From Negativicutes bacterium (lineage in GTDB: Bacteria; Bacillota_C; Negativicutes; Sporomusales_B; JARLHX01), in assembly GCA_031292015.1 (NCBI GenBank), contig JARLHY010000182.1, positions 1 through 43,726 on the forward strand: 43,726 nt of DNA, written 5' to 3'. The notes under the pieces were generated by a model. It was not told the origin of the DNA, did no database searches, and saw nothing but the letters and a program-made list of their open reading frames with translations. Position 1 is the first letter of the stretch; each line of letters starts with the position of its first letter. Of this stretch, positions 8,754-39,014 are shown piece after piece. The translations under genes were made by a program, and so were the position numbers.

Positions 8754-8765
8754 GGAGGGCCGCCG

Positions 8766-10995: not shown

Positions 10996-11014
10996 TTGGT
11001 GGGAGTTGATATAG

Positions 11015-13586: not shown

Positions 13587-13656
13587 GGCCGAAGGATGCA
13601 GCATCAATACGAGCGGCGCTCCGCTTTGGCGGCAGATTCGGCGGCGCTGGTCCGGA

Positions 13657-13687
13657 AGTTGCCGAAACCGATGAGGTCTCGGCAACT
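13657..13687 (+). other. Stem-loop in the ybeY-dgkA spacer
   Basis: AGTTGCCGA and TCGGCAACT form a 9-bp perfect stem with a 13-base loop, in a 177-base spacer that has no supported gene. No T-run follows, so it is not a standard terminator; it may be an mRNA processing or stability element inside the operon. Confidence 0.4.
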
Positions 13688-13763
13688 GTTGCGTCTGCCG
13701 AAAATCAATGCCGTAACTCGTGTGCCGGAGCCGGCAGGAAAAACTTGACGGAGGCAAACGGCC

Positions 13764-14120: not shown

Positions 14121-14136
14121 AAGGGGTAACACGGAT

Positions 14137-14541
14137 TTGGATGAATTGATTTATGCGGCAACCGCGGCGCGATCCAGCGCCTATGCTCCGTACTCTCATT
14201 TTGCGGTGGGCGCGGCCGTCCTGACCGCAAGCGGCAAGATTTACAGCGGCTGCAATGTGGAGAACGCATCTTACGGGTTGACCAATTGTGCGGAGCGTAC
14301 CGCGATTTTCAAGGCGGTGTCCGAAGGAGAGAGGGTTCTGACGACTCTGGCGGTGGTCGCCGACAGTCCGCACCCCGCCTCGCCCTGTGGCGCCTGCCGC
14401 CAGGTGATGGCCGAATTCGGCATCAGCCGGGTAATCATGTGCAATGTGAGCGGAGAGCAGCAAGTAGTTTCCCTGGCCGAGCTGCTGCCCTTTGCTTTCA
14501 CCAAAACCGAACTGCCGGGAGATGACGATAACTGTGAATGA
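14137..14541 (+). CDS. cdd: Cytidine deaminase
   Basis: 134 residues from the TTG at 14137, fitting the tetrameric CDA length. The zinc motifs are complete: TNCAERTAIFKA near 50 (with the catalytic glutamate) and PCGACRQVMAEF near 85, plus the substrate motif GCNVENASYG. It deaminates cytidine and deoxycytidine to uridine and deoxyuridine for pyrimidine salvage. AAAGGGG lies 10 bases before the TTG. A longer frame from 14089 would overlap dgkA and has no ribosome site. The 3' end overlaps the era start by 20 bases. Confidence 0.94.
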   Translation: MDELIYAATAARSSAYAPYSHFAVGAAVLTASGKIYSGCNVENASYGLTNCAERTAIFKAVSEGERVLTTLAVVADSPHPASPCGACRQVMAEFGISRVIMCNVSGEQQVVSLAELLPFAFTKTELPGDDDNCE

Positions 14542-23750: not shown

Positions 23751-24230
23751 CTATAATATAGAGTTAGTGTCCACATTGTAGGTCACGGTGTCGGCGGTCC
23801 GGGCGTTGCCGTCCTGGGTGATTTTGACGTTGCCGGAAAATACGCCGAGCTTGGAGCGCCAGTTGAATTCGGCCCGGTCGGCGGTGATCGACAGGCCGGT
23901 ACGGGTGAAGGTGACGCCGCCGTCAATCTGAGCCTTGTCCTGGGAACCGTAGACATAAACGCTGTCGCCGGTAAAGGTGATATCGTCCTGGGTCACGACC
24001 ACGCCACCGGAGCCCCAGACTTCCAGCGAACCGACGCTGACTTTGGCCATATCGGCGGTGATGATCCGGTTGCGGACTTCGATATACACATTGCCTTTCA
24101 GAACGTATAGCCCGGTATTTATATCAAAATAGGTCTTATCGGCTCTGATGACCGGTTTGGACGCAGCAAACGTTGTACTGCTCAGCACCAGGAGAGCCAG
24201 CAGGAAGATAAGTAATATTTTTCGCTTCAC
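23751..24230 (-). CDS. LptA/OstA-like periplasmic protein
   Basis: 159 residues from the GTG at 24230. A signal peptide (KRKILLIFLLALLVLSSTTFAA) is followed by repeating beta-strand units of the OstA/LptA fold: ADKTYFDINTGLYVLKGNVYIE, ITADMAKVSV, GDSVYVYGS, ITADRAEFNW and FSGNVKITQDGNARTADTVTYN in sequence. LptA-type proteins bridge LPS from the inner to the outer membrane, so this points to a diderm envelope. An ATG at 24260 overlaps the -10 box and cannot be the start of the main transcript. It is a single gene, not beside other lpt genes; it might instead handle another amphiphile. Confidence 0.85.
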   Translation of the reverse strand: MKRKILLIFLLALLVLSSTTFAASKPVIRADKTYFDINTGLYVLKGNVYIEVRNRIITADMAKVSVGSLEVWGSGGVVVTQDDITFTGDSVYVYGSQDKAQIDGGVTFTRTGLSITADRAEFNWRSKLGVFSGNVKITQDGNARTADTVTYNVDTNSIL

Positions 24231-24258
24231 AATTGTTAACCATCCTTTCTTATTACTC

Positions 24259-24267
24259 ATTATAGCA
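24259..24267 (-). promoter_or_regulatory. Extended -10 promoter of the LptA-like gene
   Basis: On the minus strand TGCTATAAT is a perfect extended -10 (TGnTATAAT); no good -35 is seen. It fixes the downstream GTG as the translation start. Confidence 0.65.
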
Positions 24268-26338: not shown

Positions 26339-26403
26339 TATCAGGATAGTTTTATTGATAACAGTCCCGCTAAATCATGAGCAACCCACAGGATGGTGCT
26401 TCT

Positions 26404-28893
26404 ATGGAGAAAACGAGGCAATACAATACAAAAAGCTTATATTTCTCCCAGCGGATAACGAAAGCAATGGCGGGAAGTTGCAATTATCCGCTTACCCTCG
26501 TCGAAGCGCCGATGGGCTACGGGAAAACCACGACTGTAAAGGGGTATCTAAATAAATCCGATGCCCATATATTGTGGCAGGTTGTCCATAATAATTCGCT
26601 GAGCAGCTTTTGGAAAGGATTTAGTCGCTTATTCGCCAAATTGAATGAAGAATGCTCGCAAAGCCTGCTGCAGCTTGGCTTTCCAGTCGACAGCGCTTTA
26701 ATGCAGGAAGCTTTGCGGATTATTGGTGAGATCAAGATAGCTGACAAAACCGCACTGGTGATTGATGACTATCATCTGATAGAAAGTCCCGCAGTCAACC
26801 GCTTGATTCAGCTTTTGGCAAGTAACGAAATAACCAATTTAAATATCATTTTAATCGCGCGTTTTGCCCAGCTTCAAAATAGCAAGGAGTTCAAGCTCAA
26901 AGGCTATTTGCATTATATAGGAAAAGAAACGTTTGAGCTTTCGCCGCAGGAAATCGCTGAATACTACAAAACGTGCGGGATTAGTCTCAACAACGCTGAA
27001 ACCGAAAAGCTGTCTGCCATGACCGAAGGCTGGATCAGCGCCCTATACCTGTTTATGCTGGAATTTATCGCCGAGGGCAGCTATACGCCGGGAAAAACCA
27101 TCTATAAGCTGATAGAAAAAGCGATATATAAGCCGCTTTCCGATGAGACTAAAGATTTTCTTGTTACCATGTGCATTTTTGACGGTTTTACCCTCAAGCA
27201 GGCCGTCCACATGTGGGGGAAAGAAGCTGCCGGCGAGCTTCTGACTGAGATAACGAACAAAACCGCTTTCGTAAAATATGACGGCAGAACCAAAACCTAT
27301 TATATGCATAATATCTTCACAGGTTTTCTCCGGGAAACGCTGGCCAGAAAAGACGGCCGCTATAAAAACGACCTATATCAAAAAGCGGCCCGGTGGGTCC
27401 AAAGAATAGGCGACTACCTCGCTGCGCGGCGCTATTTTTATGAGTGCGGCGATTTTGACGGTGTCCTTGTTGCTCTGGAAGAAGACCGATCGAATGATTT
27501 TACCGCAACGAATAAAGAGTCGCTTAAAAAGTATATGGCCGAATGCCCCTGGGAGGTCAAATTCCGTCATCACTATGCGCTGCTTATCTTTGCCATGCAT
27601 TTGTTTGTTCACAATGAGCAGGAATTGTTTCACAAAACCTGCAAGGACTTCATTGAGAATATGGAACTGGATGAAAGCTTGAAACCCGACCTGCGGAACC
27701 GGCTTTTAGGGGAGCTTGAGCTTTTGCTCAGTTTTGCCGAATTCAACGACCTGAAAAAAATGTCGGCCCGCCATCAGAAAGCCTGGGAGCTGCTTAATCA
27801 GCCGGCATCTATTTATGATGCCGGGACGAATTGGACATTTGGATCGCCATCGGTACTGACCCTTTATTACCGGGAAAGCGGTAGACTTGCAGAGCATATT
27901 CACGATTTCAAGGAAGCAATGCCCCATTACTATCGTTTGACAAATGGACACGGCTCCGGCGCGGAATACGCCATGGAGGCAGAAGCATACTTTAACCAGG
28001 GCGATTTTAAAAACGCTGAGGTTTCGGCACACAAAGCCTTGCTCAAGGCGCAAGCGGGAATGGATGAGGCTATCGTTTTCAGCGCCCAGTACCTTAAGGT
28101 GCTCATTTCTTTTATGAAGGGCGATCTAGCCCAGATGACGGCGATTATGCATACAATGCGAGAGGATATGCCAAAAGGAAAGGCATCTGATTTCATCCAT
28201 ATCGTTGAAATCTGTGAGGGCTGTATCTATGCCTATCTTGACCAAGAGGACAAAATCCCGGAAAGACTTTTGAAAGCTGATGTAGGCAACATCCGCCTAA
28301 GGTTTCCCGCGTTTCCGTTTTTTAATGTCATGTATGGCAGAGTGCTGTTAATAAAAGGAGAATACTTCAAGCTGATCGGAAGTGCGGAGCATTTTATTCA
28401 GATAGCTTCCGTTTTTCAGAATCAGCTGGGGTTTGTTTATACCTATATCTATCTTGCGGCGGCATATTATAAAATATGCAGGGAAGAGGAGGCCCTCTCA
28501 AACCTTAAAAAAGCGCTGGAAATTGCCATGCCGGACAGGCAGTTCATGCTTTTTTCGGAAAACTGCGATTATATTGAGCCACTTCTTAAAAAAATTGCCG
28601 CAGAAGGCAGCTATCGCGAAGAAATCAGGCAGATCATAAAGCTATATCAACTATACCGGAAATCCAAAGAGCAAATGCTCCATGAGCATTTCACAGGGAG
28701 CCCCCCTAAACTGACCGGGCGGGAACTGGAGATAGCGCACCTTGCGGCTGAAGGGATAACCAATAAAGAAATCGGCGCACGGCTGTTCATCTCGGAAAAC
28801 ACAGTCAAAATGGCGCTTAAAGGCGTTTTTGAAAAGCTGGGCGTCAACTCAAGGGTTTTGTTGAAGCAAGGTTTGAATAACCTCAACCAGTAA
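26404..28893 (+). CDS. Large LuxR-family transcriptional regulator (LAL / MalT-like)
   Basis: 829 residues. An N-terminal STAND-type ATPase has Walker A EAPMGYGKTTT near 36 and Walker B ALVIDDYHL near 118. A long helical TPR-like sensor region (about 330-740) follows, then a C-terminal LuxR/GerE helix-turn-helix (LTGRELEIAHLAAEGITNKE and SENTVKMALKGVFEKLGVN, about 768-825). Such proteins bind an inducer through the TPR part and activate nearby genes; an MFS gene follows on the same strand. AGGATGG lies eight bases before the ATG at 26404; an ATG at 26377 has no ribosome site. Base use is visibly A+T-richer than in the neighbours, suggesting transfer. Confidence 0.9.
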   Translation: MEKTRQYNTKSLYFSQRITKAMAGSCNYPLTLVEAPMGYGKTTTVKGYLNKSDAHILWQVVHNNSLSSFWKGFSRLFAKLNEECSQSLLQLGFPVDSALMQEALRIIGEIKIADKTALVIDDYHLIESPAVNRLIQLLASNEITNLNIILIARFAQLQNSKEFKLKGYLHYIGKETFELSPQEIAEYYKTCGISLNNAETEKLSAMTEGWISALYLFMLEFIAEGSYTPGKTIYKLIEKAIYKPLSDETKDFLVTMCIFDGFTLKQAVHMWGKEAAGELLTEITNKTAFVKYDGRTKTYYMHNIFTGFLRETLARKDGRYKNDLYQKAARWVQRIGDYLAARRYFYECGDFDGVLVALEEDRSNDFTATNKESLKKYMAECPWEVKFRHHYALLIFAMHLFVHNEQELFHKTCKDFIENMELDESLKPDLRNRLLGELELLLSFAEFNDLKKMSARHQKAWELLNQPASIYDAGTNWTFGSPSVLTLYYRESGRLAEHIHDFKEAMPHYYRLTNGHGSGAEYAMEAEAYFNQGDFKNAEVSAHKALLKAQAGMDEAIVFSAQYLKVLISFMKGDLAQMTAIMHTMREDMPKGKASDFIHIVEICEGCIYAYLDQEDKIPERLLKADVGNIRLRFPAFPFFNVMYGRVLLIKGEYFKLIGSAEHFIQIASVFQNQLGFVYTYIYLAAAYYKICREEEALSNLKKALEIAMPDRQFMLFSENCDYIEPLLKKIAAEGSYREEIRQIIKLYQLYRKSKEQMLHEHFTGSPPKLTGRELEIAHLAAEGITNKEIGARLFISENTVKMALKGVFEKLGVNSRVLLKQGLNNLNQ

Positions 28894-28931
28894 AAAAGTT
28901 ATAATACTTCCCGGTAGGTAGTATCAGGGAA

Positions 28932-28972
28932 AAAATCCACTGTACAATTTTTGTAGGGTGGATTTTTATTTT
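28932..28972 (+). terminator. Terminator after the LuxR-type gene
   Basis: AAAATCCAC pairs with GTGGATTTT, with an inner TACAA/TTGTA extension, followed by TTATTTTT. Confidence 0.85.
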
Positions 28973-29068
28973 TGATTGCGAACACGATTTTGCGCCGTAT
29001 TCACCAGCACAGGGCTATGGTTGGCAATAGGATTCAATTAGGGATTGAAGTAATATTCTGGCTATTTT

Positions 29069-29099
29069 AATTGACAGTCAATTGTATTGGAAATAGAAT
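29069..29099 (+). promoter_or_regulatory. Sigma-A promoter with palindrome over the -35, upstream of the MFS gene
   Basis: TTGACA (29071) and TAGAAT (29094) are 17 bases apart, a strong promoter. The -35 lies inside the perfect palindrome AATTGACAGTCAATT (29069-29083), a possible operator. The start codon is about 145 bases further on; that leader is A+T-rich with repeated GGAAATAGA words and no gene. Confidence 0.65.
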
Positions 29100-29249
29100 G
29101 GAAGTAGATTTTATAATATGGAAATAGATGTATTCGGCTAGATTCCATTAATGATGGGTGTCGGAGCACTCAGTTTGGGGAAAGGAGAGGAGATTTGTCG
29201 AACCTATCTTCTTGGCGGTGAAAATACCACATTATAAGGAGGAAATAGG

Positions 29250-30608
29250 ATGATCAGGAGTACGTTGTATCGATTCCGGTATTTACTGTTGGCAATCTTA
29301 ACATTTTGTTTTGCTATTCAGGTTCTTGACCGGGTAAAGACTGCGGTGCTTATTCCCTTTATCAGCCAGGATATCGGCCTCAGCAATTTTCAGATCGGTA
29401 TCGGCATGGCTATCATGATGGTATTTTACGGTCCGACCCAGATGTTGACAGGCTGGCTGTGCGACAAATTCGGTTCCCGCCGCCTGGTGATTTTTTCTAT
29501 CGCCACATGGAGCGTGATGACCTATTGGCTGGGTTTAATCGGTTCAGTTGAAGAATGGTATCTGCGGATGGCTTTATTCGGCATCCTGATCGGCACCGAG
29601 TTTATTCCCACCACCAGGCTGCTGGTGCGATACTTTCCGCCCCTGCAGCGAGCCAGAGCCCAAAGCGTGCTGTCGGTGGCCTGGATCGTCACACCGGCAC
29701 TGGCCCCGATCGTCAGCACCTGGATGTATGTGACTTTGGGCAACAGCTGGCGCGAGGTTTTTTTCTTCCTGGCTTATGTAGGCATCATTCCTTTGCTGCT
29801 GGCGGTCATGTTCGTTTTCGATAAACCCGAGAATAACCGCTTTGTGAGCAAGGACGAGGCGGTGGAGTCTTATGAAGAGGAAATCCAGCGTGGTCTCATC
29901 ACCGAGCAGGATGTCCGGAGCGGCAACTTCAAGCTGATTGAGGAAAAAGACAACACCCAGGACATGTCTTTCCTGCAGATGTTGAAAACGCCGGGCTATA
30001 TCCCGCTGATTTTTGTTTATGTCGCAGCGCAACTGGCGTATTGGGGTGTCATGACTTTTTCGGCGCAGTACCTCACCCAGGTGCACCAGTTCAATGTTAT
30101 GAAAATGGGAATGTGGGCGTCGCTATATTTCGCCGCCGGGGCTGTCGGCTCGTTCGTCAGCGGTTATGCCAGCGACCATGTCTTCAAAGGACGGCGTAAG
30201 CCGATGCTGATTGTCTGTTTTGTCAGCATGATTCCGTTTGTTATCTTATTGGCGAATCTGGAAAAAGGTATTTCGCCGTTTATTCTGCTGTTAACTTTGG
30301 CTGGCGCAGGTTTCTTCTCCAATATGGTATGGGCGCCGGCCATCAGCTATCCGGCCAACTTGTTTCCGGTCAAGGTTTATGGCAAAGCCATGGGGCTTGT
30401 CAACGGCGTGGCTTATGTGCTGGGGGCGGCGTCGCCCTTCATTATGGGATGGCTGATTGTCACCGATCCGGTCAGCAAAGTATCCAATTATTTATACGCC
30501 TGGATGTGGGTGGCCGCTACCGCCGTGCTCGGGATTGTCGCGTCAAGCATGCTGGTGGACAAAAAAGGAACAGCTGAAAGCCCAGGCAAAACGATGCAAT
30601 TTCATTAA
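29250..30608 (+). CDS. MFS transporter
   Basis: 452 residues with about 12 hydrophobic helices. The loop 2-3 signature GWLCDKFGSRRLV near residue 68 and a similar DHVFKGRRKP between helices 8 and 9 mark the Major Facilitator Superfamily; the overall look is of the anion:cation symporter (organic acid/sugar acid) branch. A long central cytoplasmic loop (about 190-245) is charged. TAAGGAGGA precedes the ATG. It is probably controlled by the LuxR-type gene upstream. The substrate is unknown. Confidence 0.88.
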   Translation: MIRSTLYRFRYLLLAILTFCFAIQVLDRVKTAVLIPFISQDIGLSNFQIGIGMAIMMVFYGPTQMLTGWLCDKFGSRRLVIFSIATWSVMTYWLGLIGSVEEWYLRMALFGILIGTEFIPTTRLLVRYFPPLQRARAQSVLSVAWIVTPALAPIVSTWMYVTLGNSWREVFFFLAYVGIIPLLLAVMFVFDKPENNRFVSKDEAVESYEEEIQRGLITEQDVRSGNFKLIEEKDNTQDMSFLQMLKTPGYIPLIFVYVAAQLAYWGVMTFSAQYLTQVHQFNVMKMGMWASLYFAAGAVGSFVSGYASDHVFKGRRKPMLIVCFVSMIPFVILLANLEKGISPFILLLTLAGAGFFSNMVWAPAISYPANLFPVKVYGKAMGLVNGVAYVLGAASPFIMGWLIVTDPVSKVSNYLYAWMWVAATAVLGIVASSMLVDKKGTAESPGKTMQFH

Positions 30609-30671: not shown

Positions 30672-30733
30672 AAGGCGAAGCCTTCTGACAGTCGTCAGAA
30701 GGCTTCGCTTCGTCCTTGGCCCGTTTTCGGGCC
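30672..30733. terminator. Double hairpin between convergent genes
   Basis: GCGAAGCCTTCTGAC and GTCAGAAGGCTTCGC form a 15-bp perfect stem with a 4-base loop, followed by a second hairpin GGCCCGTTTTCGGGCC (30718-30733). They separate the plus-strand MFS gene and the minus-strand regulator and can serve both directions. Confidence 0.8.
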
Positions 30734-30734: not shown

Positions 30735-32600
30735 TCATATTGTAATACCCAACCGGCGTATTTTCCGCCACAGCGTGGAGCGGTCGATACCCAGGATTTC
30801 GGCGGCCTTTGACTGGACGCCCCTGGCTTTTAACAGGGCTGACCGTATTTCCTCGGTCTCCTGATTGTCAATCAGGATTCGTACCGGATTATCATTCCAT
30901 TTTTCCAGGACCGGGAGGATGTGCCGCGATTCCACCGTCTGTTCCTGACAGTAGGCTACCACCCGTTCCATGACATTCTGCAGTTCACGGATATTTCCGG
31001 GCCATTCATAGCCTTCCAGGGCTTTTACGGCGGCCGGATGGAGGGTCAGTCGGCGGCCGGACGCTTGGCCGTAGCTCTGGAGAAACCGCTCGGCAAAGGG
31101 CAGGATGTCCTGCTTGCGCCGGCGCAGGGGCGGCAGTTCAAGCTTCAGGACATTCAGGCGAAAGAATAGATCTTCCCGGAATTTAGCTTCTTTGACCAAC
31201 CGTTTCAGGTCTTTGTTGGAAGCGGCGATTACTCTGACATCAATGGAGATGACGCGGTCGCTGCCAAGCCGCATGACCGACCGTTCCTGCAGGACGCGCA
31301 GCAGGCGGCTCTGATTGACGTAATCCATTTCGGCGATTTCATCCAATAAGATAGTTCCGCCGTGGGCGAGTTCAAAAATCCCCGGTTTACCTTCCTTGGT
31401 TGCTCCGGTAAAAGCGCCGGCCACATAGCCAAAGAGTTCGCTTTCCAGGATCTGACCGGGCAAGGCCGCGCAGTTTATCGCCACAAAGGGACCGTTCCTG
31501 CGGCTGCTGGCGTTATGAATACTCTGGGAGAAGACTTCTTTGCCTGTGCCGGTTTCGCCGGTGATCAGGATGTTGGAACCGGTGAGGGCAAATTCCCTGG
31601 CCAGCTTGATTACCTGGGCGATGACCGGGCTGCCGCCGATGATGTCGCTGAAGCCAAATTTGGCGATGTGTCCCTTGTTATATACTTCCTGCCTGATGCG
31701 GGCCTCGGCCTGCTGGATTTTTGTGATATCCTGAAAGGCGATCACCAAGCCGGTGGGTTTGCGGTTTACAATGATGGGGACTTTGTTGCAGAGCACTTTT
31801 AAGCCCCGGATGGTAAGGATCTCGTTGACCGCTTGCCGGCAGTCGGTCATCAAATTTTCCAGATTGAGATTCGGCCAAATTTTGTCGATGGGTTGCCCCA
31901 TAAAAGCCGGGGCCTTCACATTCAAAAGTTTTTGGGCCGTCATATTCATGCTGGTAATTTTTTGATCGCGGTCCACGGTGATAAGGCCGTCATGAACATA
32001 GTCAAAAACGATGGTTAAAAGGCTTCTCTTGGCTTTTTCGAGTTCGATGGCCCTGGCAATATGCTCCGCCTCCTGGGCGGCCTGGACAATACCTTCATCA
32101 CCGCTTTCGATGAAGACAGAGGGGAAGCCCCTGGCTTCGGCGTCGCGGACGGAAACCGCTCCGCCCAGGATAACATCAGCTCCTTCGCTGATTGCTTTTG
32201 CCACCATGGTTTCGGCTTCGTTGTCGTTGTGGATATTGTAGTGGCGGAGGTTGACGTCCAAAATGGCGGCGAGACAATCGATGCCGATGACCATGGTCTC
32301 ATAGGCAACAACCGCGATATTCGTGCCGTATTTTCGGGCCTTCTCCACAGCCCGGATGATGTCAAAGCCGGTTATCGGCAGTTCTACGATGGTGGCCGGC
32401 AGCCCTGATCTTTTTAATAAGGCGGCGGTGCCCGCCCGGGCGATAATGATTTCATATCCCTGCTCAACCAACTTCCGGGCGGACTCAATCTTTTTATTCA
32501 GGCTGCAATATTCCACATGAATCTGGTGCTGATCCTGCAGGGCTTTTTTGATGACAGGCACCATCTGGGGGTGGGGGATTAAAAAAGCAATTGTGCCCAC
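30735..32600 (-). CDS. Sigma-54-dependent transcriptional activator with PrpR_N sensor domain
   Basis: 621 residues from the GTG at 32600, six bases after GGAGGTG. An N-terminal PrpR_N sensor domain (about 1-185) is followed by a PAS domain (about 200-310), then the AAA+ sigma-54 interaction domain with Walker A GETGTGKEVF near 346, the sigma-54 contact loop GAFTGA near 395 and Walker B GGTILLDEIAEM. A Fis-type helix-turn-helix ends the protein (SKAAEILGIDRSTLWRKI). PrpR-type activators sense small carboxylic acids such as 2-methylcitrate. It is divergent from the organic-acid operon, whose promoter has a -24/-12 box. A frame extension of 43 residues upstream is unsupported. Confidence 0.95.
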   Translation of the reverse strand: MGTIAFLIPHPQMVPVIKKALQDQHQIHVEYCSLNKKIESARKLVEQGYEIIIARAGTAALLKRSGLPATIVELPITGFDIIRAVEKARKYGTNIAVVAYETMVIGIDCLAAILDVNLRHYNIHNDNEAETMVAKAISEGADVILGGAVSVRDAEARGFPSVFIESGDEGIVQAAQEAEHIARAIELEKAKRSLLTIVFDYVHDGLITVDRDQKITSMNMTAQKLLNVKAPAFMGQPIDKIWPNLNLENLMTDCRQAVNEILTIRGLKVLCNKVPIIVNRKPTGLVIAFQDITKIQQAEARIRQEVYNKGHIAKFGFSDIIGGSPVIAQVIKLAREFALTGSNILITGETGTGKEVFSQSIHNASSRRNGPFVAINCAALPGQILESELFGYVAGAFTGATKEGKPGIFELAHGGTILLDEIAEMDYVNQSRLLRVLQERSVMRLGSDRVISIDVRVIAASNKDLKRLVKEAKFREDLFFRLNVLKLELPPLRRRKQDILPFAERFLQSYGQASGRRLTLHPAAVKALEGYEWPGNIRELQNVMERVVAYCQEQTVESRHILPVLEKWNDNPVRILIDNQETEEIRSALLKARGVQSKAAEILGIDRSTLWRKIRRLGITI

Positions 32601-32652
32601 TTGCAACACCTCCGCAACAAATGCAATAGTTTTACAACAATGATAAAACAAT

Positions 32653-32668
32653 TTGCCAAAACTGGCAA
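32653..32668. promoter_or_regulatory. Candidate activator-binding site (inverted repeat)
   Basis: TTGCCA-AAAC-TGGCAA is a perfect 6-bp inverted repeat in the divergent control region, 44 bases upstream of the -24 box. It is a plausible upstream activating site for the PrpR_N-type regulator. Other GCAA/TTGC words lie around it. Confidence 0.45.
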
Positions 32669-32711
32669 TGGTTTTGCTCCGAAAATACTGAATATTGCTG
32701 CATTGGCGGCT

Positions 32712-32728
32712 TTGGCACGGAAATTGCA
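32712..32728 (+). promoter_or_regulatory. Sigma-54 (-24/-12) promoter
   Basis: TTGGCACGGAAATTGCA matches the consensus TTGGCACGnnnnTTGCW at every fixed position, with GG and GC spaced correctly. It lies 47 bases before the MFS start codon and faces the five-gene operon. Confidence 0.92.
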
Positions 32729-32774
32729 ACTTGTTCCTGTGAAATGGATCGAATAGAAAAGCGGGGTGACAGGC

Positions 32775-34034
32775 TTGTTGGAAAGTTGGAAAGTAAGGAA
32801 TAAGACGCTGTTGATTTTATGTCTGATTTATGTTGTCGCTTTTTTGGACCGGGCGAATTTTAATGTTGCTGCGCCGTATATTGCCAAAGAACTGCAGCTT
32901 AACCCCAGCCAGATGGGGATGATTATGAGCGCCTTTCTTATCGGCTACGGCTGGCTCCAGGTGGTTGGGGGCATTATGGCCGACCGGCTGGGCGGCCGCA
33001 AGACGTTGGTTTTTGCTATTTTATGGTGGTCGGTATTCACCGCGGCGACCGGCTTGGCCGGCGGGTTCATGAGTATGGTGGTGATCCGCTTCGTCTTCGG
33101 ATCGGGGGAGGCGTTTCAGCCGCCTGCCTGTTATAAAGGTGTTTCGGTATGGTTTCCCAAGAAGGAACGTCTTTTCGCCAATTCGATGATGATGGGGGCT
33201 ACCGCGCTGGCCCCTGCCATCACGCCTCTGATCGTGGTCTGGATGATGCAGGCCTTCGGCTGGAAAGGAATGTTTCTTTCTTTCTCCATTCCCGGATTGA
33301 TCATGGCCTGGGTGGTCTGGCACAACTTGTACGATAATCCGGCCGACCACCCTAAGATCACCAAGGAAGAGCTGACCGAGATTTACGACGGACTGCCGCC
33401 GGTCTCCCAGGTTCCCAAGCTGTCGCTGTGGGATGCCTGCCGCGTCCCGGGGCTGTTTTTGCTGGCGATGATTTACCTGATCTTTGACATCACCTACTGG
33501 GGGTTCTTTTCCTGGCTGCCGTCCTATCTTGTGAATGTCCGCCATTTCGCCATGCTGAAAATGGGCATTTATGCGTCGATGCCTTTCCTGGCCGGGTTTA
33601 TTGGCCTCATGCTGGCCAATACCATCGGCACCAAGATTTTTCGGGGCAACAAGCTGGTATTTTTAAGCGTCATCTGGGTGATTGGCGCAGCTTCGATGTA
33701 CTTGGCCTATGCTTCCGCCAGCGCCGAGGTTTGTATCACCTTTTTGTCGCTGACCGCCTGCTGCGGCATTTACATGAGCCTCGGCCCGTTTTGGGCGCTG
33801 GTTACCGAGACCATGCCCAGTCAGGCGATGGGTTTTTTAAGTTCCATCGTGAATGGCGCAGGCAAGGTCGGCGGAGCGATGGCTCCCGCAGCCATCGGCT
33901 TTCTTATCGACTGGGCGGGTGGAGACTATGGCGCCGGCTTTGCGCTGATGGAAGCCTGTCTGCTAATATGCGCGGTCCTGGTGTTCTTCGTGCGGGAGAA
34001 GAAAACCGTGCCTGAAGTCAATACCGCCGGTTAA
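32775..34034 (+). CDS. MFS transporter, organic-acid type
   Basis: 419 residues from the TTG at 32775, with GGGGTGA six bases upstream. Twelve hydrophobic helices and the signature ADRLGGRKTLVF near 70 are visible; YVVAFLDRANFNVAAPYI at the N-terminus is typical of the ACS family (hexuronate, galactonate, phthalate and similar anions). It is the first gene of the sigma-54 operon and presumably imports the acid that the next genes degrade. A GTG at 32766 is an alternative start but would lie on the ribosome site. Confidence 0.9.
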   Translation: MLESWKVRNKTLLILCLIYVVAFLDRANFNVAAPYIAKELQLNPSQMGMIMSAFLIGYGWLQVVGGIMADRLGGRKTLVFAILWWSVFTAATGLAGGFMSMVVIRFVFGSGEAFQPPACYKGVSVWFPKKERLFANSMMMGATALAPAITPLIVVWMMQAFGWKGMFLSFSIPGLIMAWVVWHNLYDNPADHPKITKEELTEIYDGLPPVSQVPKLSLWDACRVPGLFLLAMIYLIFDITYWGFFSWLPSYLVNVRHFAMLKMGIYASMPFLAGFIGLMLANTIGTKIFRGNKLVFLSVIWVIGAASMYLAYASASAEVCITFLSLTACCGIYMSLGPFWALVTETMPSQAMGFLSSIVNGAGKVGGAMAPAAIGFLIDWAGGDYGAGFALMEACLLICAVLVFFVREKKTVPEVNTAG

Positions 34035-34079
34035 CCTGACCATAAAAGACAGATCAGAATGAAGGAGAGGAAATCAGCA

Positions 34080-35324
34080 ATGCACGCAGTTCATAAAATG
34101 CTGGCCGCCGCCGCCGGTAAAGAGCGGGTCAGCCCTGGCGAAATCATCAATGCCCGGGTGGATGTCGCCGGCATCAACGACATTTATCTGCTTGTCGTCA
34201 ACTCATTCAACGATATGCTCGGCTCAAAGGTCTGGGATCCGGCCAAAGTTTACATCTTTATGGATCACAACGCTCCGGCCTCCACCCTCAAAGCCGCCGA
34301 GAACCAAAAAGCCTTCCGGGAATTTGCCGACAAATACGGCTGCAATATCGTGGAGATTAATGAAGGAATATGCCATATGGTCTTGCCCGAGTCCGGCGCC
34401 ATCCGGCCCGGCGCCATCGTCATCATCACCGATTCCCACACAACGACGCATGGCGCCCTCGGCGCTTTCGGGACAGGCGTGGGTTCCACCGACATGGCGG
34501 CGATACTGATGGAGGGAGCCATGTGGCTTCGGGTGCCTGACGTGGTAAATGTCCGTCTTTCCGGAAGGCTGGCGGACGGAGTGATGGCCAAGGATGCTGC
34601 CCTCTACATTCTCGGTAAGCTGGGGACCAGTTTTGCGAACTACAAGGTAATAGAATTTTCCGGCCCGGTTATCGAAGCTCTGCCTGTCGAGGAACGGATG
34701 GTTCTTTGCAACATGGCTGTCGAAATGGGCGCAAAGGCGACTTTTATCAAACCGGACCAGACCACCGTCGATTATGTGACAGCCCGCACCGCGGTACCGT
34801 TCACGGTTTACGAATCCGACCCTGATTATCAATATGCCGCGGAATACGATTTGGAGCTGTCGGCACTTGAACCGCAGGTGGCTGTGCCCTTCGCGGTCAA
34901 TAACGCCAGGAATCTGACGGAGGTGGAAGGAACCGCCATCGACCAGGTTTTTGTCGGGTCCTGCACCGGCGGCAAAAACCTCGACATCGAGGTTGTCGCC
35001 AAGGTGCTGAAGGGCAGAAAAATCGCCCCGACGACCCGGCTGGTGGTGACCATGGCATCAAAGAAAGTACTGCAGGAAGCGCTGGAAAAAGGTTATGTCC
35101 AGATTCTCCTGGAGGCAGGGGCAGCAATCACCACCCCTGGCTGCGGCGGATGTTCGGGCCTGCTTGGCGGCATACTGGCGGCCCATGAAACCTGTGCCTC
35201 CACCGCCAATCGCAATTTTGTCGGCCGCATGGGCAGCGAACAGTCGAAAATCTATCTTGTGTCTCCGTTGACGGCGGCCGCGACGGCGCTGACAGGCCGG
35301 TTGACACACCCCAGCCGGTTATAA
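34080..35324 (+). CDS. Aconitase-family hydro-lyase large subunit (LeuC-like)
   Basis: 414 residues, the size of the LeuC/HacA group. The cluster ligands are seen at C295 (VGSCTGGKNLD) and C355/C358 (PGCGGCSG); DSHTTTHGALGAFGTGVGST near 125 is the conserved active-site stretch. The [4Fe-4S] enzyme would dehydrate or isomerise a 2- or 3-hydroxy acid. GGAGAGG precedes the ATG at 34080. It pairs with the small subunit 15 bases downstream. The operon has a sigma-54 promoter, carriers and an RraA-family gene and lacks leuA, so leucine synthesis is unlikely; homologues act on isopropylmalate, homocitrate, citramalate or dimethylmalate. Confidence 0.9.
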   Translation: MHAVHKMLAAAAGKERVSPGEIINARVDVAGINDIYLLVVNSFNDMLGSKVWDPAKVYIFMDHNAPASTLKAAENQKAFREFADKYGCNIVEINEGICHMVLPESGAIRPGAIVIITDSHTTTHGALGAFGTGVGSTDMAAILMEGAMWLRVPDVVNVRLSGRLADGVMAKDAALYILGKLGTSFANYKVIEFSGPVIEALPVEERMVLCNMAVEMGAKATFIKPDQTTVDYVTARTAVPFTVYESDPDYQYAAEYDLELSALEPQVAVPFAVNNARNLTEVEGTAIDQVFVGSCTGGKNLDIEVVAKVLKGRKIAPTTRLVVTMASKKVLQEALEKGYVQILLEAGAAITTPGCGGCSGLLGGILAAHETCASTANRNFVGRMGSEQSKIYLVSPLTAAATALTGRLTHPSRL

Positions 35325-35339
35325 GAGGAGGTTACAGGC

Positions 35340-35849
35340 ATGAAAATTGCAGGTAAAGCGGTTGTCTTCAATCACGACGATATCTGCACCGATGAAATCT
35401 ATCCCGGCCCCTATGTCAATCTGACCGATCCGGCGGAAATCGCCGAGCATGTTTTGGAGGGCGCCGACAAATCGCTGAAAAACAGGTTCAAAACCGTCGG
35501 CAACATTTTGGTCACCGGCAGCAATTTCGGCTGCGGTTCGAGCCGGGAACAGGCGGTCATCGCCATCAAAGAGTCCGGGGTCAAAGCGGTCATCGCCGGC
35601 TCGGTGGGGCGGATCTGGTACCGGAACGCGATCAATCTGGGCTTCCCGGTCTTGATTTGCCCGGGACTGGCCGCAGTACTCAAGGAGGGCGACGGTATCG
35701 AAATCGATCTGAGGCAGGGAACGGTCAAAGAGCTGGACAGCGGGACGATCCACCAGGGGGAAGCTATTCCTGATTTTGTCCTGAACATGTTTGAACTTGG
35801 TGGCCTGAAACCAATGATGCGGAAAAAAGGAGGAAATGCAGATGCTTGA
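35340..35849 (+). CDS. Aconitase-family hydro-lyase small subunit (LeuD-like)
   Basis: 169 residues of the swivel-domain type. It has DDICTDEIYPGPYVNL near 14, GSNFGCGSSREQAV near 60 and GRIWYRNAINLGFPVLICP near 90, all standard for LeuD/HacB. It completes the large subunit encoded just before it. The substrate-selecting loop around YPGPYVNL differs from the usual LeuD YLK-type residues as far as I can judge, in line with another substrate. AGGAGG precedes the ATG. The last 8 bases overlap the next gene. Confidence 0.9.
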   Translation: MKIAGKAVVFNHDDICTDEIYPGPYVNLTDPAEIAEHVLEGADKSLKNRFKTVGNILVTGSNFGCGSSREQAVIAIKESGVKAVIAGSVGRIWYRNAINLGFPVLICPGLAAVLKEGDGIEIDLRQGTVKELDSGTIHQGEAIPDFVLNMFELGGLKPMMRKKGGNADA

Positions 35850-36477
35850 AATCAACCCTTGTGCCAAGATGCTGCCGGAAAGTGCCATTCAGCGGGTGAA
35901 GAGGCTTTCAACCACGTTGCTGGCTGACGCCATGGCCGGGGCCGGCGCCATGGATTACCGGATCAAGCCGATCACGCCGGGGACCAGGCTCATCGGAACG
36001 GCACTCACCGTTAATCTTCGGCCCGGCGACAACATGGCGCTCCACAAGGCAATCGTCTTTTCCAAAGGTTATGTTCTGGTGGCTGATCATAAAATGGAAA
36101 CAACCAGCGCCCCCTGGGGCGACCTCATGACCCGGGCGGCCATGGCCGCCGGAGCGATCGGTACTGTGGTCGGCGGTGTAGTCCGCGATATCAACGATCT
36201 TCGTCAACTGAGCTTTCCCATTTTTGCCATGGGGACGGTCCCCAACGCCACAAGCAAAAGCGGTCCGGGCGAGATCAATGTTCCAATCAGCTGCGGCGGG
36301 GTTGCGGTTCAACCGGGGGATCTGATTGTCGGCGATGACGACGGGGTGGTGGTCATCAAACCGGAAATGCTGGAACAGGTGCTGGCTGCTGCTGAGAACA
36401 AAGCCCAGCAGGAACAAAAACGGATCAAAGAGATCGAGGCAGGGATCATCGAGCCGGAGTGGCTGCGTCAGAAATAA
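35842..36477 (+). CDS. RraA-family protein, probable 2-oxoacid aldolase
   Basis: 211 residues. The RraA/class II pyruvate aldolase fold is indicated by LSTTLLADAMAGAGAMDYRI near 25, the GGVVRDINDL motif near 115 (with the Arg-Asp pair used in aldolase members) and GDLIVGDDDGVVVI near 155. Relatives are HMG/CHA aldolases, which cleave 4-hydroxy-4-methyl-2-oxoglutarate to pyruvate, and oxaloacetate decarboxylases; E. coli RraA itself binds RNase E. The operon setting favours an enzyme. AAGGAGG lies eight bases before the ATG at 35842; an ATG at 35836 is too close. Confidence 0.85.
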   Translation: MLEINPCAKMLPESAIQRVKRLSTTLLADAMAGAGAMDYRIKPITPGTRLIGTALTVNLRPGDNMALHKAIVFSKGYVLVADHKMETTSAPWGDLMTRAAMAAGAIGTVVGGVVRDINDLRQLSFPIFAMGTVPNATSKSGPGEINVPISCGGVAVQPGDLIVGDDDGVVVIKPEMLEQVLAAAENKAQQEQKRIKEIEAGIIEPEWLRQK

Positions 36478-36489
36478 GGAGGATGAATC

Positions 36490-37590
36490 ATGGCCAAATC
36501 ACTGAAAATTGCCGTTCTGCCGGGAGACGGGATTGGTCCCGAAATCACACACGAAGCGGTTAGGGTGCTGCGGGCGGTGGAAAAGAAGCTGGGGACTTTC
36601 GCGCTGGACTGCCAGTACCAGGATACCAGCGTCGACCGCTACCGCCGCCTGGGGGTCGCGATGTCGGAGGAAAGCTATAATGACTGCAAAGCCGCTGACG
36701 CCATTTTGCTCGGGGCCATGGGGATTCCAGAGATCCGTCTGCCGGACGGGACCGAGGTTCAGCCGGAAATCGTCCTGCGGCTGCGCTTTTCCCTTGATCT
36801 GTATGCCGGCATCCGGCCGGTCAAATATTATCCGGGTGTAACCAGCCGGATTATGGATCCGGCCATCGACTACGTGATTATGCGGGAAAACACCGAGGGG
36901 CTGTATTCAGCCAGAGGCGGCGGGAACATCCTGCATGATGAAGTCGCCACCGACACGATGGTGATTACCCGCACCGGGACAGCGAAGATCGTCAGGGCCT
37001 CGGCCAAAATCGCCCGGGCCAGAGCCGCAGCCCGGGGGGGCAGGGGCAAGGTAACCTGCGTCGACAAGAGCAATGTCCTGCGGTCCTATGCATTCTTCCG
37101 CAAAGTGTTCGACGAAGTGATGGATGAGTTTCCCGATCTGGAGCGGGATTACGCCTATGTCGACGCGATGATGATCAACATGGTGCTGTGGCCGGAACGC
37201 TATGATGTCATCGCGGTGGAAAATATGTTCGGCGACATCATCTCCGATCTGGGGCCGGCCACTGTCGGCGGTATGGGGATGGCTCCCTCAGCCGATGTGG
37301 GCGACAGGCACGGCATGTTCCAGCCGTCGCACGGGTCGGCGCCGACGATTGCCGGCAAAGGCATCGCCAATCCCATCGCCACGATTCTTTCCGGCGCGAT
37401 GATGCTCCAGTGGCTTGATGAACGGCACCCCAACCTTATGCTCAAAAGTGCGGCTGCTATGATCGACCGCGCAGTGACGGAGTTTATCGGCAAAAAACAA
37501 GGACTGACCACTGATATCGGCGGCAGCGGCACCACCGGCGGAGTCGGCGACGGGGTGATCAAGGAAATTGAAATGATGTCGATCCTTTAA
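36490..37590 (+). CDS. Isocitrate/isopropylmalate-type beta-decarboxylating dehydrogenase
   Basis: 366 residues. It has IAVLPGDGIGPEITHEAVRV at the N-terminus, LYAGIRPVKYYPGV near 105, the catalytic VIMRENTEGLYSARGG near 130 and the metal/NAD site DAMMINMVLWPERYDVIAVENMFGDIISDLG (in pieces) near 220-255. These enzymes oxidise a 2-hydroxy acid and decarboxylate the product. The usual LeuB segment RPEQGLL is absent (LRFSLDLYAGIRPVK instead), so a homoisocitrate, tartrate or other alkylmalate-type substrate is as likely. GGAGG precedes the ATG. It is the last gene before a terminator. Confidence 0.9.
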   Translation: MAKSLKIAVLPGDGIGPEITHEAVRVLRAVEKKLGTFALDCQYQDTSVDRYRRLGVAMSEESYNDCKAADAILLGAMGIPEIRLPDGTEVQPEIVLRLRFSLDLYAGIRPVKYYPGVTSRIMDPAIDYVIMRENTEGLYSARGGGNILHDEVATDTMVITRTGTAKIVRASAKIARARAAARGGRGKVTCVDKSNVLRSYAFFRKVFDEVMDEFPDLERDYAYVDAMMINMVLWPERYDVIAVENMFGDIISDLGPATVGGMGMAPSADVGDRHGMFQPSHGSAPTIAGKGIANPIATILSGAMMLQWLDERHPNLMLKSAAAMIDRAVTEFIGKKQGLTTDIGGSGTTGGVGDGVIKEIEMMSIL

Positions 37591-37606
37591 TTGCAGCTAT
37601 TTATTG

Positions 37607-37647
37607 AAACAGCACCCATCGCTTCAGACCGAGGGTGCTGTTTTTTT
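37607..37647 (+). terminator. Terminator between the dehydrogenase and GntP genes
   Basis: AACAGCACCC pairs with GGGTGCTGTT and is followed by seven T. Some readthrough into the permease gene is possible since no separate promoter is obvious. Confidence 0.92.
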
Positions 37648-37685
37648 CGGAAGGCAACAGGCAGATTGGGGAAAGAGGTGGAAGC

Positions 37686-39014
37686 ATGTTGTTGATGTTG
37701 GTGATCATCACCATCGCGGCGCTCTTTGTATTGATTGTCAGGTACAAGGTCAATCCGTTCGTCGCACTCGTCGCCGCCAGCATCTTTTTGGGCCTGCTGG
37801 CCGGTATGGCGCCGGCAGAGGTCGCCAAATCCATCGCCGCCGGCATCGGCAGTACCCTGGGATTTATCGCCATCGTACTGGGTTTCGGCACGATGCTGGG
37901 CAAGCTGATGGCCGAGTCCGGGGCCGCCGATGTGATGGCCCGCAGGATGATTGATTTTTTCGGCGAGGAACGGGTGAACTGGGCCATAGCCGGCGTGGCG
38001 TTCATTATCGGGATTTCGGTCTTCTTTCAGGTGGGGCTGGTGCTGCTGATTCCCCTGTTGTTCACTATTGCCCTGCGCACCGGGGTGTCGCTGCTGTTCG
38101 TCGTCGTTCCCCTGATTGCCACCCTGAGCGCCGTGCAGCACTATATGCCGCCCCATCCGGCCATCATGGCCATTGTCAACATCCTGCACGCCGATATCTC
38201 CAAAACCATTCTTTATGGTTTTGTTTTATCGGTACCGACCTCGATCATCGCCGGCCCGCTTTTTGGCAAATTCATCAGCAAACGCATTCAAAAAACCCCT
38301 TCGCCGGATATGGTCGCCAAATTTTGTTCGGCGACCGTTCACGGCAATCCGCCGAGCTTCGGGATATCGGTGTTGACGATGATTTTTCCGATTACGCTGA
38401 TGCTGTTGTCGGAGGTGGCTGACCTGGCCTTCGCCAAGGGAACTTTTGCTTTTGGCCTGCTGAAATTTGTCGGCGGCCCCTCGATATCGTTATTTGTTTC
38501 GTTTGTCCTGGCGCTTTACACTTTCGGGTTCGCCAGAGGCTTTACCAAGGAGCAGCTCAACAAGTTTACCACCGAGTGCCTCGGACCGGTGGCCATGATT
38601 CTGCTGGTAATCGGAGCAGGCGGCGCCTTCGGCAGGGTTTTGGTTGACAGCGGCGTGGCTAAAACGGTCACGGCTCTGTCAACCCAGTTGAGCATACCGC
38701 CGCTGCTGCTTGCCTGGTCGATTGGGTCGCTGCTGAGATTTTCCGTGGGTTCCGGGACGGTTGCCATGATTACCACCGCCGGGATGGTCAGCCCGCTTGT
38801 CACGTCGGGAGCGGTTACACCCGAGCTGATGGTAATGGCGATCGGGGCAGGCGGAACAGGATTTTCCCATGTCACCGATTCGGGATTCTGGGTGGTAAAG
38901 GAATTTTTTGGCCTCACCATGGAAGAAACGCTCAAAACCTGGACGGTTGTCACAACGATGATTTCGGTTATCGGTATTTGTATAGTCAGCGTTATGAGTG
39001 TCCTCGGGTTCTGA
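37686..39014 (+). CDS. GntP family permease
   Basis: 442 residues with about 12-14 hydrophobic helices. The family features are the start LVIITIAALFVLIVRYKVNPF, GFGTMLGKLMAESGAADVMA near 75, YMPPHPAIMAIV near 155, and SVGSGTVAMITTAG and GAGGTGFSHVTDSGFW near 375-415. GntP proteins are proton symporters for gluconate and other hydroxy acids. AGAGGTGG lies before the ATG at 37686. It stands after a terminator at the end of the sigma-54 island, giving a second carrier of a different family beside the MFS protein. Confidence 0.92.
   Translation: MLLMLVIITIAALFVLIVRYKVNPFVALVAASIFLGLLAGMAPAEVAKSIAAGIGSTLGFIAIVLGFGTMLGKLMAESGAADVMARRMIDFFGEERVNWAIAGVAFIIGISVFFQVGLVLLIPLLFTIALRTGVSLLFVVVPLIATLSAVQHYMPPHPAIMAIVNILHADISKTILYGFVLSVPTSIIAGPLFGKFISKRIQKTPSPDMVAKFCSATVHGNPPSFGISVLTMIFPITLMLLSEVADLAFAKGTFAFGLLKFVGGPSISLFVSFVLALYTFGFARGFTKEQLNKFTTECLGPVAMILLVIGAGGAFGRVLVDSGVAKTVTALSTQLSIPPLLLAWSIGSLLRFSVGSGTVAMITTAGMVSPLVTSGAVTPELMVMAIGAGGTGFSHVTDSGFWVVKEFFGLTMEETLKTWTVVTTMISVIGICIVSVMSVLGF

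Follow-up and report, generated by a model that had tools for sequence, protein, structure and literature searches.

A Negativicutes gene cluster for the probable uptake and degradation of a small hydroxy acid by relatives of leucine-synthesis enzymes

Introduction

The closest solved relative of the hydro-lyase described in this study is the isopropylmalate/citramalate isomerase of M. jannaschii (4NQY/4KP1, large subunit; 3VBA, small subunit), a biosynthetic enzyme with a two-subunit [4Fe-4S] layout. We know of no sigma-54 control of this isomerase and of no association with RraA proteins. The 2-methylcitrate operon is governed by PrpR, a regulator that combines a PrpR_N sensor with a sigma-54 AAA+ activator and is encoded divergently from its operon. 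Further counterparts are the HMG/CHA aldolase - oxaloacetate decarboxylase of P. putida (3NOJ), the tartrate/D-malate dehydrogenase (TIGR02089; 3FLK) of the beta-decarboxylating dehydrogenase superfamily, and the 3-oxo-tetronate (threonate/erythronate) clusters with a DUF1537 kinase. Maleate hydratase activity has been reported for the LeuC of M. jannaschii (PMC8307300), and oxaloacetate is known to be decarboxylated by class II pyruvate aldolases (PMC5065237).

The window, i.e., the complete 43,726-nucleotide stretch of a Negativicutes contig that was analyzed, resembles these systems in part. It encodes a LeuC/LeuD pair with the two-subunit layout of the M. jannaschii enzyme (379 and 140.4 bits, respectively), but the small-subunit loop reads PGPYVNLTDP instead of PARYLVYTKP. 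The divergent regulator shares the PrpR_N and AAA+ architecture of PrpR, but it falls below the equivalog cut-offs for PrpR (TIGR02329, 365.8 vs. 499.2) and PrdR (407.6 vs. 795), and the scanned ORFs contain no methylcitrate enzymes except the LeuCD pair. The RraA-family protein retains the Arg-Asp pair of 3NOJ and its surrounding motif, but stays below both equivalog cut-offs (NF006731, 149.6 vs. 179; TIGR02798, 134.6 vs. 304.5), and aromatic ring-cleavage genes are absent from the 30 scanned ORFs. The dehydrogenase belongs to the same superfamily as the tartrate/D-malate enzyme, but misses its cut-off (280.7 vs. 470.4). Finally, the 3-oxo-tetronate cluster of Rhodovulum sp. PH10 also has a GntP gene and encodes a dehydrogenase with 83% identity to that of the window, but the window has LeuCD and RraA instead of the kinase and decarboxylase, neither of which is found among the scanned ORFs. 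No paper on the complete gene combination was found among the matches listed in our search of open-licence PMC papers, and PMC3223730 and PMC10580937 offered nothing on the substrate.

Results

Organization of the locus

Both ORF positions and Pfam profiles confirm that the genes named in an earlier note on this DNA are present between positions 30735 and 39014, each at its place and on its strand. The regulator gene (30735..32600, minus strand) encodes PrpR_N (135.1 bits), sigma-54 AAA+ (221.1) and Fis-type HTH_8 (44.1) domains; the PAS domain that the note had added is weak and below cut-off (PF08448, 21.2 vs. 23.1). Behind this gene lies a terminator-like stem of 15 pairs (30675..30708, minus strand), a match to the consensus only. 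The operon on the plus strand starts with the carrier MFS2 (32766..34034; MFS_1, 186.8 bits), which is assigned to the D-galactonate/phthalate-type (ACS-like) branch with a TIGR00893 score of 220.9 bits against a cut-off of 395. It is followed by the large subunit of a LeuC-type [4Fe-4S] hydro-lyase (34059..35324; Aconitase, 319.9), which profiles, alignment and tree place in a non-leucine branch, and by the LeuD/DmdB-type small subunit (35340..35849; Aconitase_C, 57.2). The gene for the RraA-family protein (35836..36477; RraA-like, 150.6), which has class II pyruvate aldolase/oxaloacetate decarboxylase residues, overlaps leuD, and the last gene encodes an isocitrate/isopropylmalate-type dehydrogenase (36490..37590; Iso_dh, 303.4) of an uncharacterised subfamily, as judged from profiles, tree and residues.

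A GntP-family permease gene (37686..39014, plus strand; GntP_permease, 498.1; TIGR00791, 473.5 vs. cut-off 292.75) lies downstream, most likely starting at ATG 37686 within a mechanical ORF from 37635. The gap between dehydrogenase and permease contains a terminator-like stem with a T run (37607..37647, plus strand) that was read by eye and is missing from the hairpin scan list, its loop being too long for the scan. Because this stem precedes the permease gene, it is uncertain whether GntP is part of the operon; the permease stands where the note had placed it.

HMGL/LeuA-type, citrate synthase and citrate lyase domains are not listed in the Pfam scans of 30 window ORFs, with smaller ORFs outside the scan, in agreement with the note's statement that leuA, prpC and citrate lyase are missing. 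Rfam and ARAGORN report four tRNAs close to the window end as the only RNA genes. YbeY, Cdd, Era and RpoD were recognized in the window by reading only. Since the G+C content of the operon genes is 0.54-0.59 compared with 0.571 for bases 1-24260, composition does not show a foreign origin.

Regulator and sigma-54 promoter

The sequence TGGCACGGAAATTGCA (32713-32728, plus strand) is the sole exact match to TGGCACGN4TTGCW in the whole window and is predicted to be a sigma-54 -24/-12 promoter. It is located between the divergent PrpR_N regulator and MFS2-LeuC-LeuD-RraA-dehydrogenase, and this intergenic placement of a single exact site on the operon strand is more than chance; the relaxed one-mismatch pattern TGGCN7TTGCW shows no enrichment there (28 vs. 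25.4). The combination of an exact site facing the operon and an adjacent AAA+ activator gene puts the sigma-54 control suggested by the note on firmer ground than its reader could show, and the sensor protein encoded in the cluster probably activates it. The regulator displays GAFTGA and Walker A motifs. Its start is most likely GTG 32600 and not TTG 32729, up to which the mechanical ORF extends, because the alignments with two relatives begin at residue 44 of the 664-aa ORF and GGAGGTG lies immediately upstream of the GTG. The palindrome TTGCCAAAACTGGCAA (32653..32668), which is also on the hairpin scan list, may serve as an activator site; it is not conserved in the related loci L043 or L048, and a shared operator was rejected, as the window palindrome and the inverted repeat of L043 do not match.

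Hydro-lyase

The cysteines C302, C362 and C365 of LeuC are invariant in 16 aligned rows, and LeuD keeps the GSSRE motif. LeuC exceeds three subfamily cut-offs (NF001614, 522.2 vs. 385; TIGR01343, 496.5 vs. 385.7; TIGR02086, 496.2 vs. 410.15) and LeuD that of the LeuD/DmdB subfamily (TIGR02087, 158.6 vs. 108.95). Both subunits miss the homoaconitase cut-offs (HacA, 400.5 vs. 550; HacB, 145.5 vs. 230). LeuD lacks the loop Arg of methanogen homoaconitase (YVNL vs. YLRT). As leucine-type LeuD is likewise devoid of this Arg, its absence does not pick a substrate. A LeuC homologue with 65% identity (P0061) carries the name 2,3-dimethylmalate dehydratase. Window-type LeuC was recorded in none of 398 Pseudomonadota genomes at E <= 1e-140, a strict threshold that does not show absence, and the 41 LeuC and 18 dehydrogenase matches in plasmid records all have less than 60% identity.

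Judged at the level of sequence families, the cluster is not a leucine-synthesis cluster, in line with the note's reading. The leucine equivalog cut-offs are missed by LeuC (TIGR02083, 430.1 vs. 610.65), LeuD (TIGR02084, 147.7 vs. 245.85) and the dehydrogenase (TIGR00169, 257.1 vs. 353.2; NF002898, 300.9 vs. 393). In the LeuC tree, 11 leucine rows are split from the other labelled rows with a support of 100/97, and the window LeuC branches outside; the leucine label was assigned by score for L052 and by neighbours, not score, for L053. Three LeuB-type rows are separated with 100/100 in the dehydrogenase tree, which has flagged long branches, and the window enzyme again lies outside. The placement inside true leucine-synthesis clades that the note had named as a refutation of its reading was thus not observed for LeuC or the dehydrogenase. 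Moreover, a separate LeuC above the leucine cut-off is present in all seven fetched genomes with window-type LeuC. What speaks for leucine biosynthesis or a spare leucine gene set are the family names and the true LeuB (471.7 vs. 353.2) that adjoins the nearest LeuC (68% identical) in L042, but the genome of L042 is among the seven with a second LeuC, and a sigma-54 activator and a carrier within the operon also argue against this function. We therefore rejected leucine synthesis on cut-offs, trees and separate leucine LeuC copies, and regard it as extremely improbable.

Dehydrogenase and RraA-family protein

The dehydrogenase has the catalytic landmarks R99, R109, R132, Y139 and K193. According to PMC2796266, tartrate/D-malate enzymes have Trp at the Glu88 site and isocitrate enzymes favor Asn at the Leu91 site; the window enzyme lacks the Trp (Gln91/Pro92) and has Val95 instead of the Asn. 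Hydrophobic residues (V95, L96) occupy the Leu91/Leu92 positions of its pocket, and Asn134 takes the place of the isopropylmalate-type Leu135. The gene for the Rhodovulum relative is clustered with those for a 3-oxo-tetronate kinase (592.5 vs. 350), a 3-oxo-tetronate-4-phosphate decarboxylase (296.5 vs. 250) and GntP. More distant dehydrogenases differ in their pocket and carry Phe instead of Tyr139; of 20 regions around their genes, 7 contain relatives of this kinase.

In the RraA-family protein, R117-D118 aligns with R123-D124 of 3NOJ, i.e., the catalytic Arg and the neighboring Asp are both present. LeuC and RraA seem to recur together, as judged from equal-length contigs, an indirect sign of linkage: seven pairs of six lengths were found against 0.24 expected, and none of 500 shifts reached seven (119 LeuC, 119 RraA and 119/120 dehydrogenase rows, the window's own excluded). 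A direct observation of RraA beside LeuCD comes from L049 only, where it is on the opposite strand and the LeuC is a distant one.

Neighborhoods of the relatives

The four-gene set that the note had proposed to search for was not found to be conserved as a unit, but LeuCD recurs with a PrpR-like regulator in three of the seven fetched window-type LeuC loci. The window-type dehydrogenase is found in none of them, and relatives of RraA, MFS1, MFS2 and GntP are absent from all seven at E <= 1e-3, two of the contigs being only about 6 kb long. L048 contains a PrpR-like regulator, the sole exact sigma-54 site in 19.9 kb and then TctC-TctA-LeuC-LeuD-MR_MLE with a tartrate-type dehydrogenase, which surpasses the tartrate dehydrogenase cut-off (565.1 vs. 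470.4) and also barely passes the isopropylmalate model NF002898 (395.1 vs. 393). In L043 a PrpR-like regulator, the closest one (49% identity over 620 aa), faces LeuC-LeuD-TctC-TctA, with no sigma-54 site even at two mismatches. L042, the nearest LeuC neighborhood, harbors LeuB and aconitase, no tartrate genes, and beside LeuCD a lyase of the PEP mutase/ICL superfamily below the prpB cut-off (299.6 vs. 354.4).

Discussion

With enzymes related to those of leucine synthesis, the gene cluster seems to serve the uptake and degradation of a small hydroxy acid. Our preferred reading, held tentatively and at somewhat under even confidence, is a substrate-induced catabolic operon that converts an imported C4-C5 hydroxy-diacid to pyruvate-level 2-oxo acids, with a putative substrate from the candidate classes tartrate, malate/maleate or citramalate/citraconate. 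The acid imported by MFS2 would be a hydroxy-dicarboxylic acid that lacks a third carboxylate, the LeuCD pair would dehydrate, hydrate or isomerise it, and RraA would form pyruvate by decarboxylation or cleavage of the oxaloacetate-like or 4-hydroxy-2-oxo acid thus produced. From a 2R-malate-type product, the dehydrogenase may generate a 2-oxo acid and CO2, and the regulator would sense the acid or an early product. The single best guess for the core is a hydroxy-diacid converted to oxaloacetate by LeuCD and then to pyruvate and CO2 by RraA. This reading draws on the exact sigma-54 site, the layouts of L048 and L043, the exclusion of a leucine role at family level, the equal-length contigs of LeuC and RraA, the RraA Arg-Asp pair together with the oxaloacetate decarboxylation by class II pyruvate aldolases (PMC5065237), the maleate hydratase precedent (PMC8307300) and the lack of a tri-acid contact in LeuD and dehydrogenase. 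Against it count the absence of RraA, carriers and window-type dehydrogenase from the seven loci, the direct RraA-LeuCD neighborhood in L049 only, the dehydrogenase without the tartrate/D-malate Trp and below that family's cut-off, L042 without tartrate genes, L043 without a site, the NF002898 score of the L048 dehydrogenase, the equally Arg-less leucine-type LeuD and the unenriched TGGCN7TTGCW.

The note had leaned towards tricarboxylic acids, and it is this part of its reading that finds no support, while its sigma-54-controlled catabolic operon without a leucine role is supported. In a tri-acid route, a hydroxylated citrate-like acid would be isomerised by LeuCD and converted by the dehydrogenase to 4-hydroxy-2-oxoglutarate or a homologue, from which RraA would release pyruvate and glyoxylate or another 2-oxo acid. 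Each of the three enzymes would thereby catalyze one of the consecutive steps, with chemistry that is textbook knowledge for its family; the hydroxycitrate steps connect on paper, Tct carriers adjoin LeuCD in L043 and L048, and PrpR_N is reminiscent of the methylcitrate sensor. However, the residues, namely LeuD without the homoaconitase Arg and Val for the isocitrate-type Asn in the dehydrogenase, argue against tricarboxylates, and with the HacA, HacB and PrpR cut-offs all missed we consider this route unlikely. The dimethylmalate route of Eubacterium barkeri is the model for an alkylmalate pathway, in which LeuCD would act as a DmdAB-type dehydratase/hydratase on external citramalate, dimethylmalate or isopropylmalate and the dehydrogenase would form 2-oxobutyrate or a branched 2-oxo acid. 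The LeuD/DmdB score, the name of P0061, the L042 lyase and the hydrophobic V95 and L96 fit such a pathway, but the scanned window ORFs encode no lyase of this superfamily, that of L042 is below the prpB cut-off, RraA is left without a role and Asn134 replaces Leu135, which makes it quite unlikely.

The Rhodovulum cluster, the kinase relatives in the 20 regions and the sugar-acid carrier families of MFS2 and GntP raise a further alternative, i.e., that the dehydrogenase oxidises a tetronate (threonate or erythronate), with LeuCD and RraA acting on a related acid that enters via MFS2 or GntP. We judge it quite improbable, given that neither such a kinase nor a class II aldolase domain occurs in the 30 scanned ORFs and that the dehydrogenases of the 20 regions differ in Tyr139 and pocket; also, we know of no LeuCD chemistry on a mono-acid sugar. 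Building on the di-acid reading, LeuCD-RraA could represent an undescribed two-step module for the conversion of a tartrate-like hydroxy-diacid to pyruvate, with an aconitase-superfamily dehydratase followed by an RraA-type oxaloacetate decarboxylase, a PrpR_N regulator responsive to a di-acid instead of 2-methylcitrate, and, as an addition in this genome, a beta-decarboxylating dehydrogenase that represents a fourth specificity class; this extension is doubtful but conceivable.

Because sources label such genes as 3-isopropylmalate dehydratase and dehydrogenase, annotations that point to leucine synthesis can conceal a catabolic route. In the genomes examined, this LeuC branch does not serve leucine synthesis, as shown by the cut-offs, the trees and the counts of second copies. 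The recurrence of PrpR-like regulators with LeuCD, and apparently of LeuC with RraA, narrows the substrates to a short list, and a single series of assays could therefore establish a novel function for the aconitase superfamily, RraA proteins and PrpR_N sensors.

Gene organization and promoter region

All genes named in the earlier note were found in the window. The activator of the minus strand, located opposite the operon, contains the PrpR_N, sigma-54 AAA+ and Fis-type domains ascribed to it, while its PAS match falls below the cut-off. Its mechanical ORF begins at TTG 32729, and the start is probably GTG 32600, since the regulator relatives of L043 and L048 (fetched loci of relatives, as are all L numbers) align from residue 44 of this ORF and the GTG is directly preceded by GGAGGTG. 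The facing plus-strand operon comprises MFS2 (start 32766), LeuC (34059), LeuD (35340), RraA (35836, overlapping leuD) and the dehydrogenase (36490-37590). Between the dehydrogenase and GntP (plus strand, likely start 37686), a stem followed by a run of T was read by eye at 37607-37647.

The sequence TGGCACGGAAATTGCA (32713-32728), which is located 37 bases upstream of the MFS2 start on the same strand, represents the sole exact match to TGGCACGN4TTGCW on either strand of the window. The looser pattern TGGCN7TTGCW has only two perfect matches in the window, both in the activator-MFS2 intergenic region; with one mismatch allowed, it is not enriched (28 vs. 25.4 expected). Among the nine relative loci scanned (L001, L042-L049), the exact site is present in L048 only (5978-5993), between a PrpR-like regulator and TctC. 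As counter-evidence, L043, whose regulator is the closest (49% over 620 aa), has no sigma-54 site even with up to two mismatches.

Housekeeping genes flank the operon region on both sides (Pfam scans of 30 window ORFs), with GlyQ, GlyS and a kinase/pyrophosphorylase as examples from the upstream side and DnaG from the downstream side. The joint presence of the sporulation gene YqfD (8766-9989) and an LptA-like gene (23751-24260) suggests a spore-forming diderm Firmicute as host. In the region 26377-30608, a MalT-type LuxR regulator with the lowest G+C content among the measured genes (0.457) precedes a second MFS carrier, which has a near-consensus sigma-70 promoter (TTGACA-17-TAGAAT, 29071-29099), and the two possibly form a separate uptake unit. 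The region 7-1600 comprises part of a molybdopterin oxidoreductase, truncated by the window start, and after it a 4Fe-4S subunit.

Distinction from leucine synthesis

None of LeuC, LeuD and the dehydrogenase reaches the leucine equivalog cut-offs, which argues against leucine synthesis; the leucine set of L052 passes those for LeuC and LeuB. A search with the LeuC alignment in 395 genomes from the phylum of a Desulfobacterales genome (E <= 1e-140) yielded matches in 12, seven at 579-804 bits (here "window-type") and five at 470-476. Larger regions were fetched for ten of the 12, including all seven window-type genomes, and two from the relative genome G002. Each window-type genome harbors a separate LeuC above the leucine cut-off of 610.65, and their window-type copies score 409-454. 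G002, the eighth genome scored, has no LeuC above this cut-off.

The phylogenies bear out the non-leucine reading of the earlier note. The LeuC tree (59 rows) contains a branch of 100/97 support that sets the 11 leucine rows apart, and the window LeuC is placed outside them, within a 41-row clade (100/99). The three LeuB-type rows are separate from the other dehydrogenases (100/100) in the 50-row dehydrogenase tree, to which a long-branch warning applies. It is very probable that the operon is catabolic, sigma-54-regulated and non-leucine.

Neighborhoods of related genes

In L042, whose LeuC (identical to cluster P0018 of a Syntrophorhabdaceae MAG) and LeuD are 68% and 60% identical to those of the window, the run 5507-14778 encodes an XRE-cupin regulator, a PEP mutase/ICL-superfamily lyase, DctP, LeuC, LeuD, a LeuB above its cut-off and an aconitase; the two genes after DctP are taken as putative TRAP subunits by position. 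A PrpR-like gene is present in three of the seven window-type loci (L046 and L047 are contigs of only ~6 kb). It lies opposite LeuC-LeuD-TctC-TctA in L043, adjoins LeuC in an apparently broken form in L045, and faces TctC-TctA-LeuC-LeuD-MR_MLE-dehydrogenase in L048 (3970-13217). The L048 dehydrogenase passes the tartrate model (565.1 bits, cut-off 470.4) and narrowly an isopropylmalate model (395.1, cut-off 393), and MR_MLE is nearest to L-talarate/galactarate dehydratase but under its cut-off (325, cut-off 500). With its regulator, exact sigma-54 site and tartrate-type dehydrogenase, L048 is a candidate tartrate/D-malate operon. Relatives of RraA, GntP, MFS2 and MFS1, the window's other MFS carrier, were found in none of the seven loci at E <= 1e-3 (L046 and L047 covering only ~6 kb), nor was a window-type dehydrogenase. 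In L049 from G002, RraA and a distantly related LeuCD occur close together, on different strands.

Co-occurrence was assessed by agreement in the length of the longest contig per protein cluster and in source, with the best 120 matches listed per search and a null of 500 length shifts (1 to 250 bases either way). Among the matches listed (119 + 119 rows), LeuC and RraA share seven pairs on six lengths versus a mean of 0.24 expected, a number reached by 0/500 shifts, and four pairs at lengths >= 10 kb versus 0.014. The corresponding values, likewise among matches listed, are 1 versus 0.26 for LeuC/dehydrogenase and 0 versus 0.28 for dehydrogenase/RraA. According to these counts, an indirect measure, LeuC and RraA look like a recurring pair outside the fetched Desulfobacterota loci, and the dehydrogenase looks like an addition. 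Two LeuC paralogues (P0081, P0115) and an RraA (P0259) each have a longest contig of 18265 bases from a Bacillota MAG.

Substrate of the operon

According to PMC2796266, Asn at Leu91 indicates isocitrate, Trp at Glu88 tartrate/D-malate, and Leu91 with Val193 isopropylmalate enzymes. The window dehydrogenase has Val95, Pro92 (Gln91 opposite the Trp), Val196 and Asn134 for Leu135; judged by these residues and the published rules, it fits none of the three classes. By the same rules, the tri-acid lean of the earlier note loses ground, because Val95 instead of the isocitrate-type Asn leaves the pocket without a tri-acid contact.

Among the best 120 matches listed, the close dehydrogenase clade consists of eight clusters at 73-90% identity, the next being at 60%. 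Tyr139 is thought to act after decarboxylation, yet it is Ile in five of these eight (P0124-P0128; best 120 listed). The neighborhood was seen for one close-clade cluster, Rhodovulum sp. PH10 (L001), where GntP is also present and the dehydrogenase is preceded by a kinase above the cut-off for 3-oxo-tetronate kinase and a decarboxylase above that for 3-oxo-tetronate-4-phosphate decarboxylase. In the order of this strain, 55 of 297 genomes have a dehydrogenase match (E <= 1e-80), and 7 of 20 fetched regions contain 3-oxo-tetronate-type kinase relatives (42-50% identity). The dehydrogenases of these seven regions exhibit Phe at Tyr139 and a two-residue pocket gap, a combination also found in rows without a nearby kinase; Phe at the catalytic Tyr would fit a dehydrogenase acting without decarboxylation. 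The kinase-adjacent enzymes (L058, L061, L067, L068, L069, L070, L071 and L001) possibly represent a tetronate dehydrogenase family; neighbors in L058 are a Gfo/Idh-type oxidoreductase, a GntR regulator and a metallo-lactonase-like protein.

A loop of the small subunit governs substrate choice, as stated in PMC7308503. The window LeuD has PGPYVNLTDP in this loop, compared with PGPYLRTTDP for homoaconitase and PARYLVYTKP for the isomerase. The homoaconitase Arg binds the extra carboxylate. This Arg is also absent from the leucine-type LeuD of L052 and L053, so the Arg-less loop disfavors homoaconitase without choosing a substrate. The window RraA retains, in the alignment, the Arg-Asp of the P. 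putida HMG/CHA aldolase 3NOJ. Published studies describe oxaloacetate decarboxylation by class II pyruvate aldolases (PMC5065237), report M. jannaschii LeuC as a maleate hydratase (PMC8307300) and indicate that an RraA-like protein may also be a keto-deoxy sugar diacid dehydratase/decarboxylase (PMC8563752).

A C4-C5 di-acid is our tentative choice of substrate over a tri-acid, a sugar acid or an alkylmalate. MFS2 would import the acid, LeuCD would dehydrate, hydrate or isomerise a C4-C5 hydroxy-diacid, RraA would form pyruvate from a product of oxaloacetate-like or 4-hydroxy-2-oxo type, and the dehydrogenase would remove a 2R-malate-type product via oxidative decarboxylation. The operon would work like known acid-catabolic operons, yet neither its enzymes nor its regulator exceed an equivalog cut-off among the models shown, and it would hence represent a variant assembled from known families.
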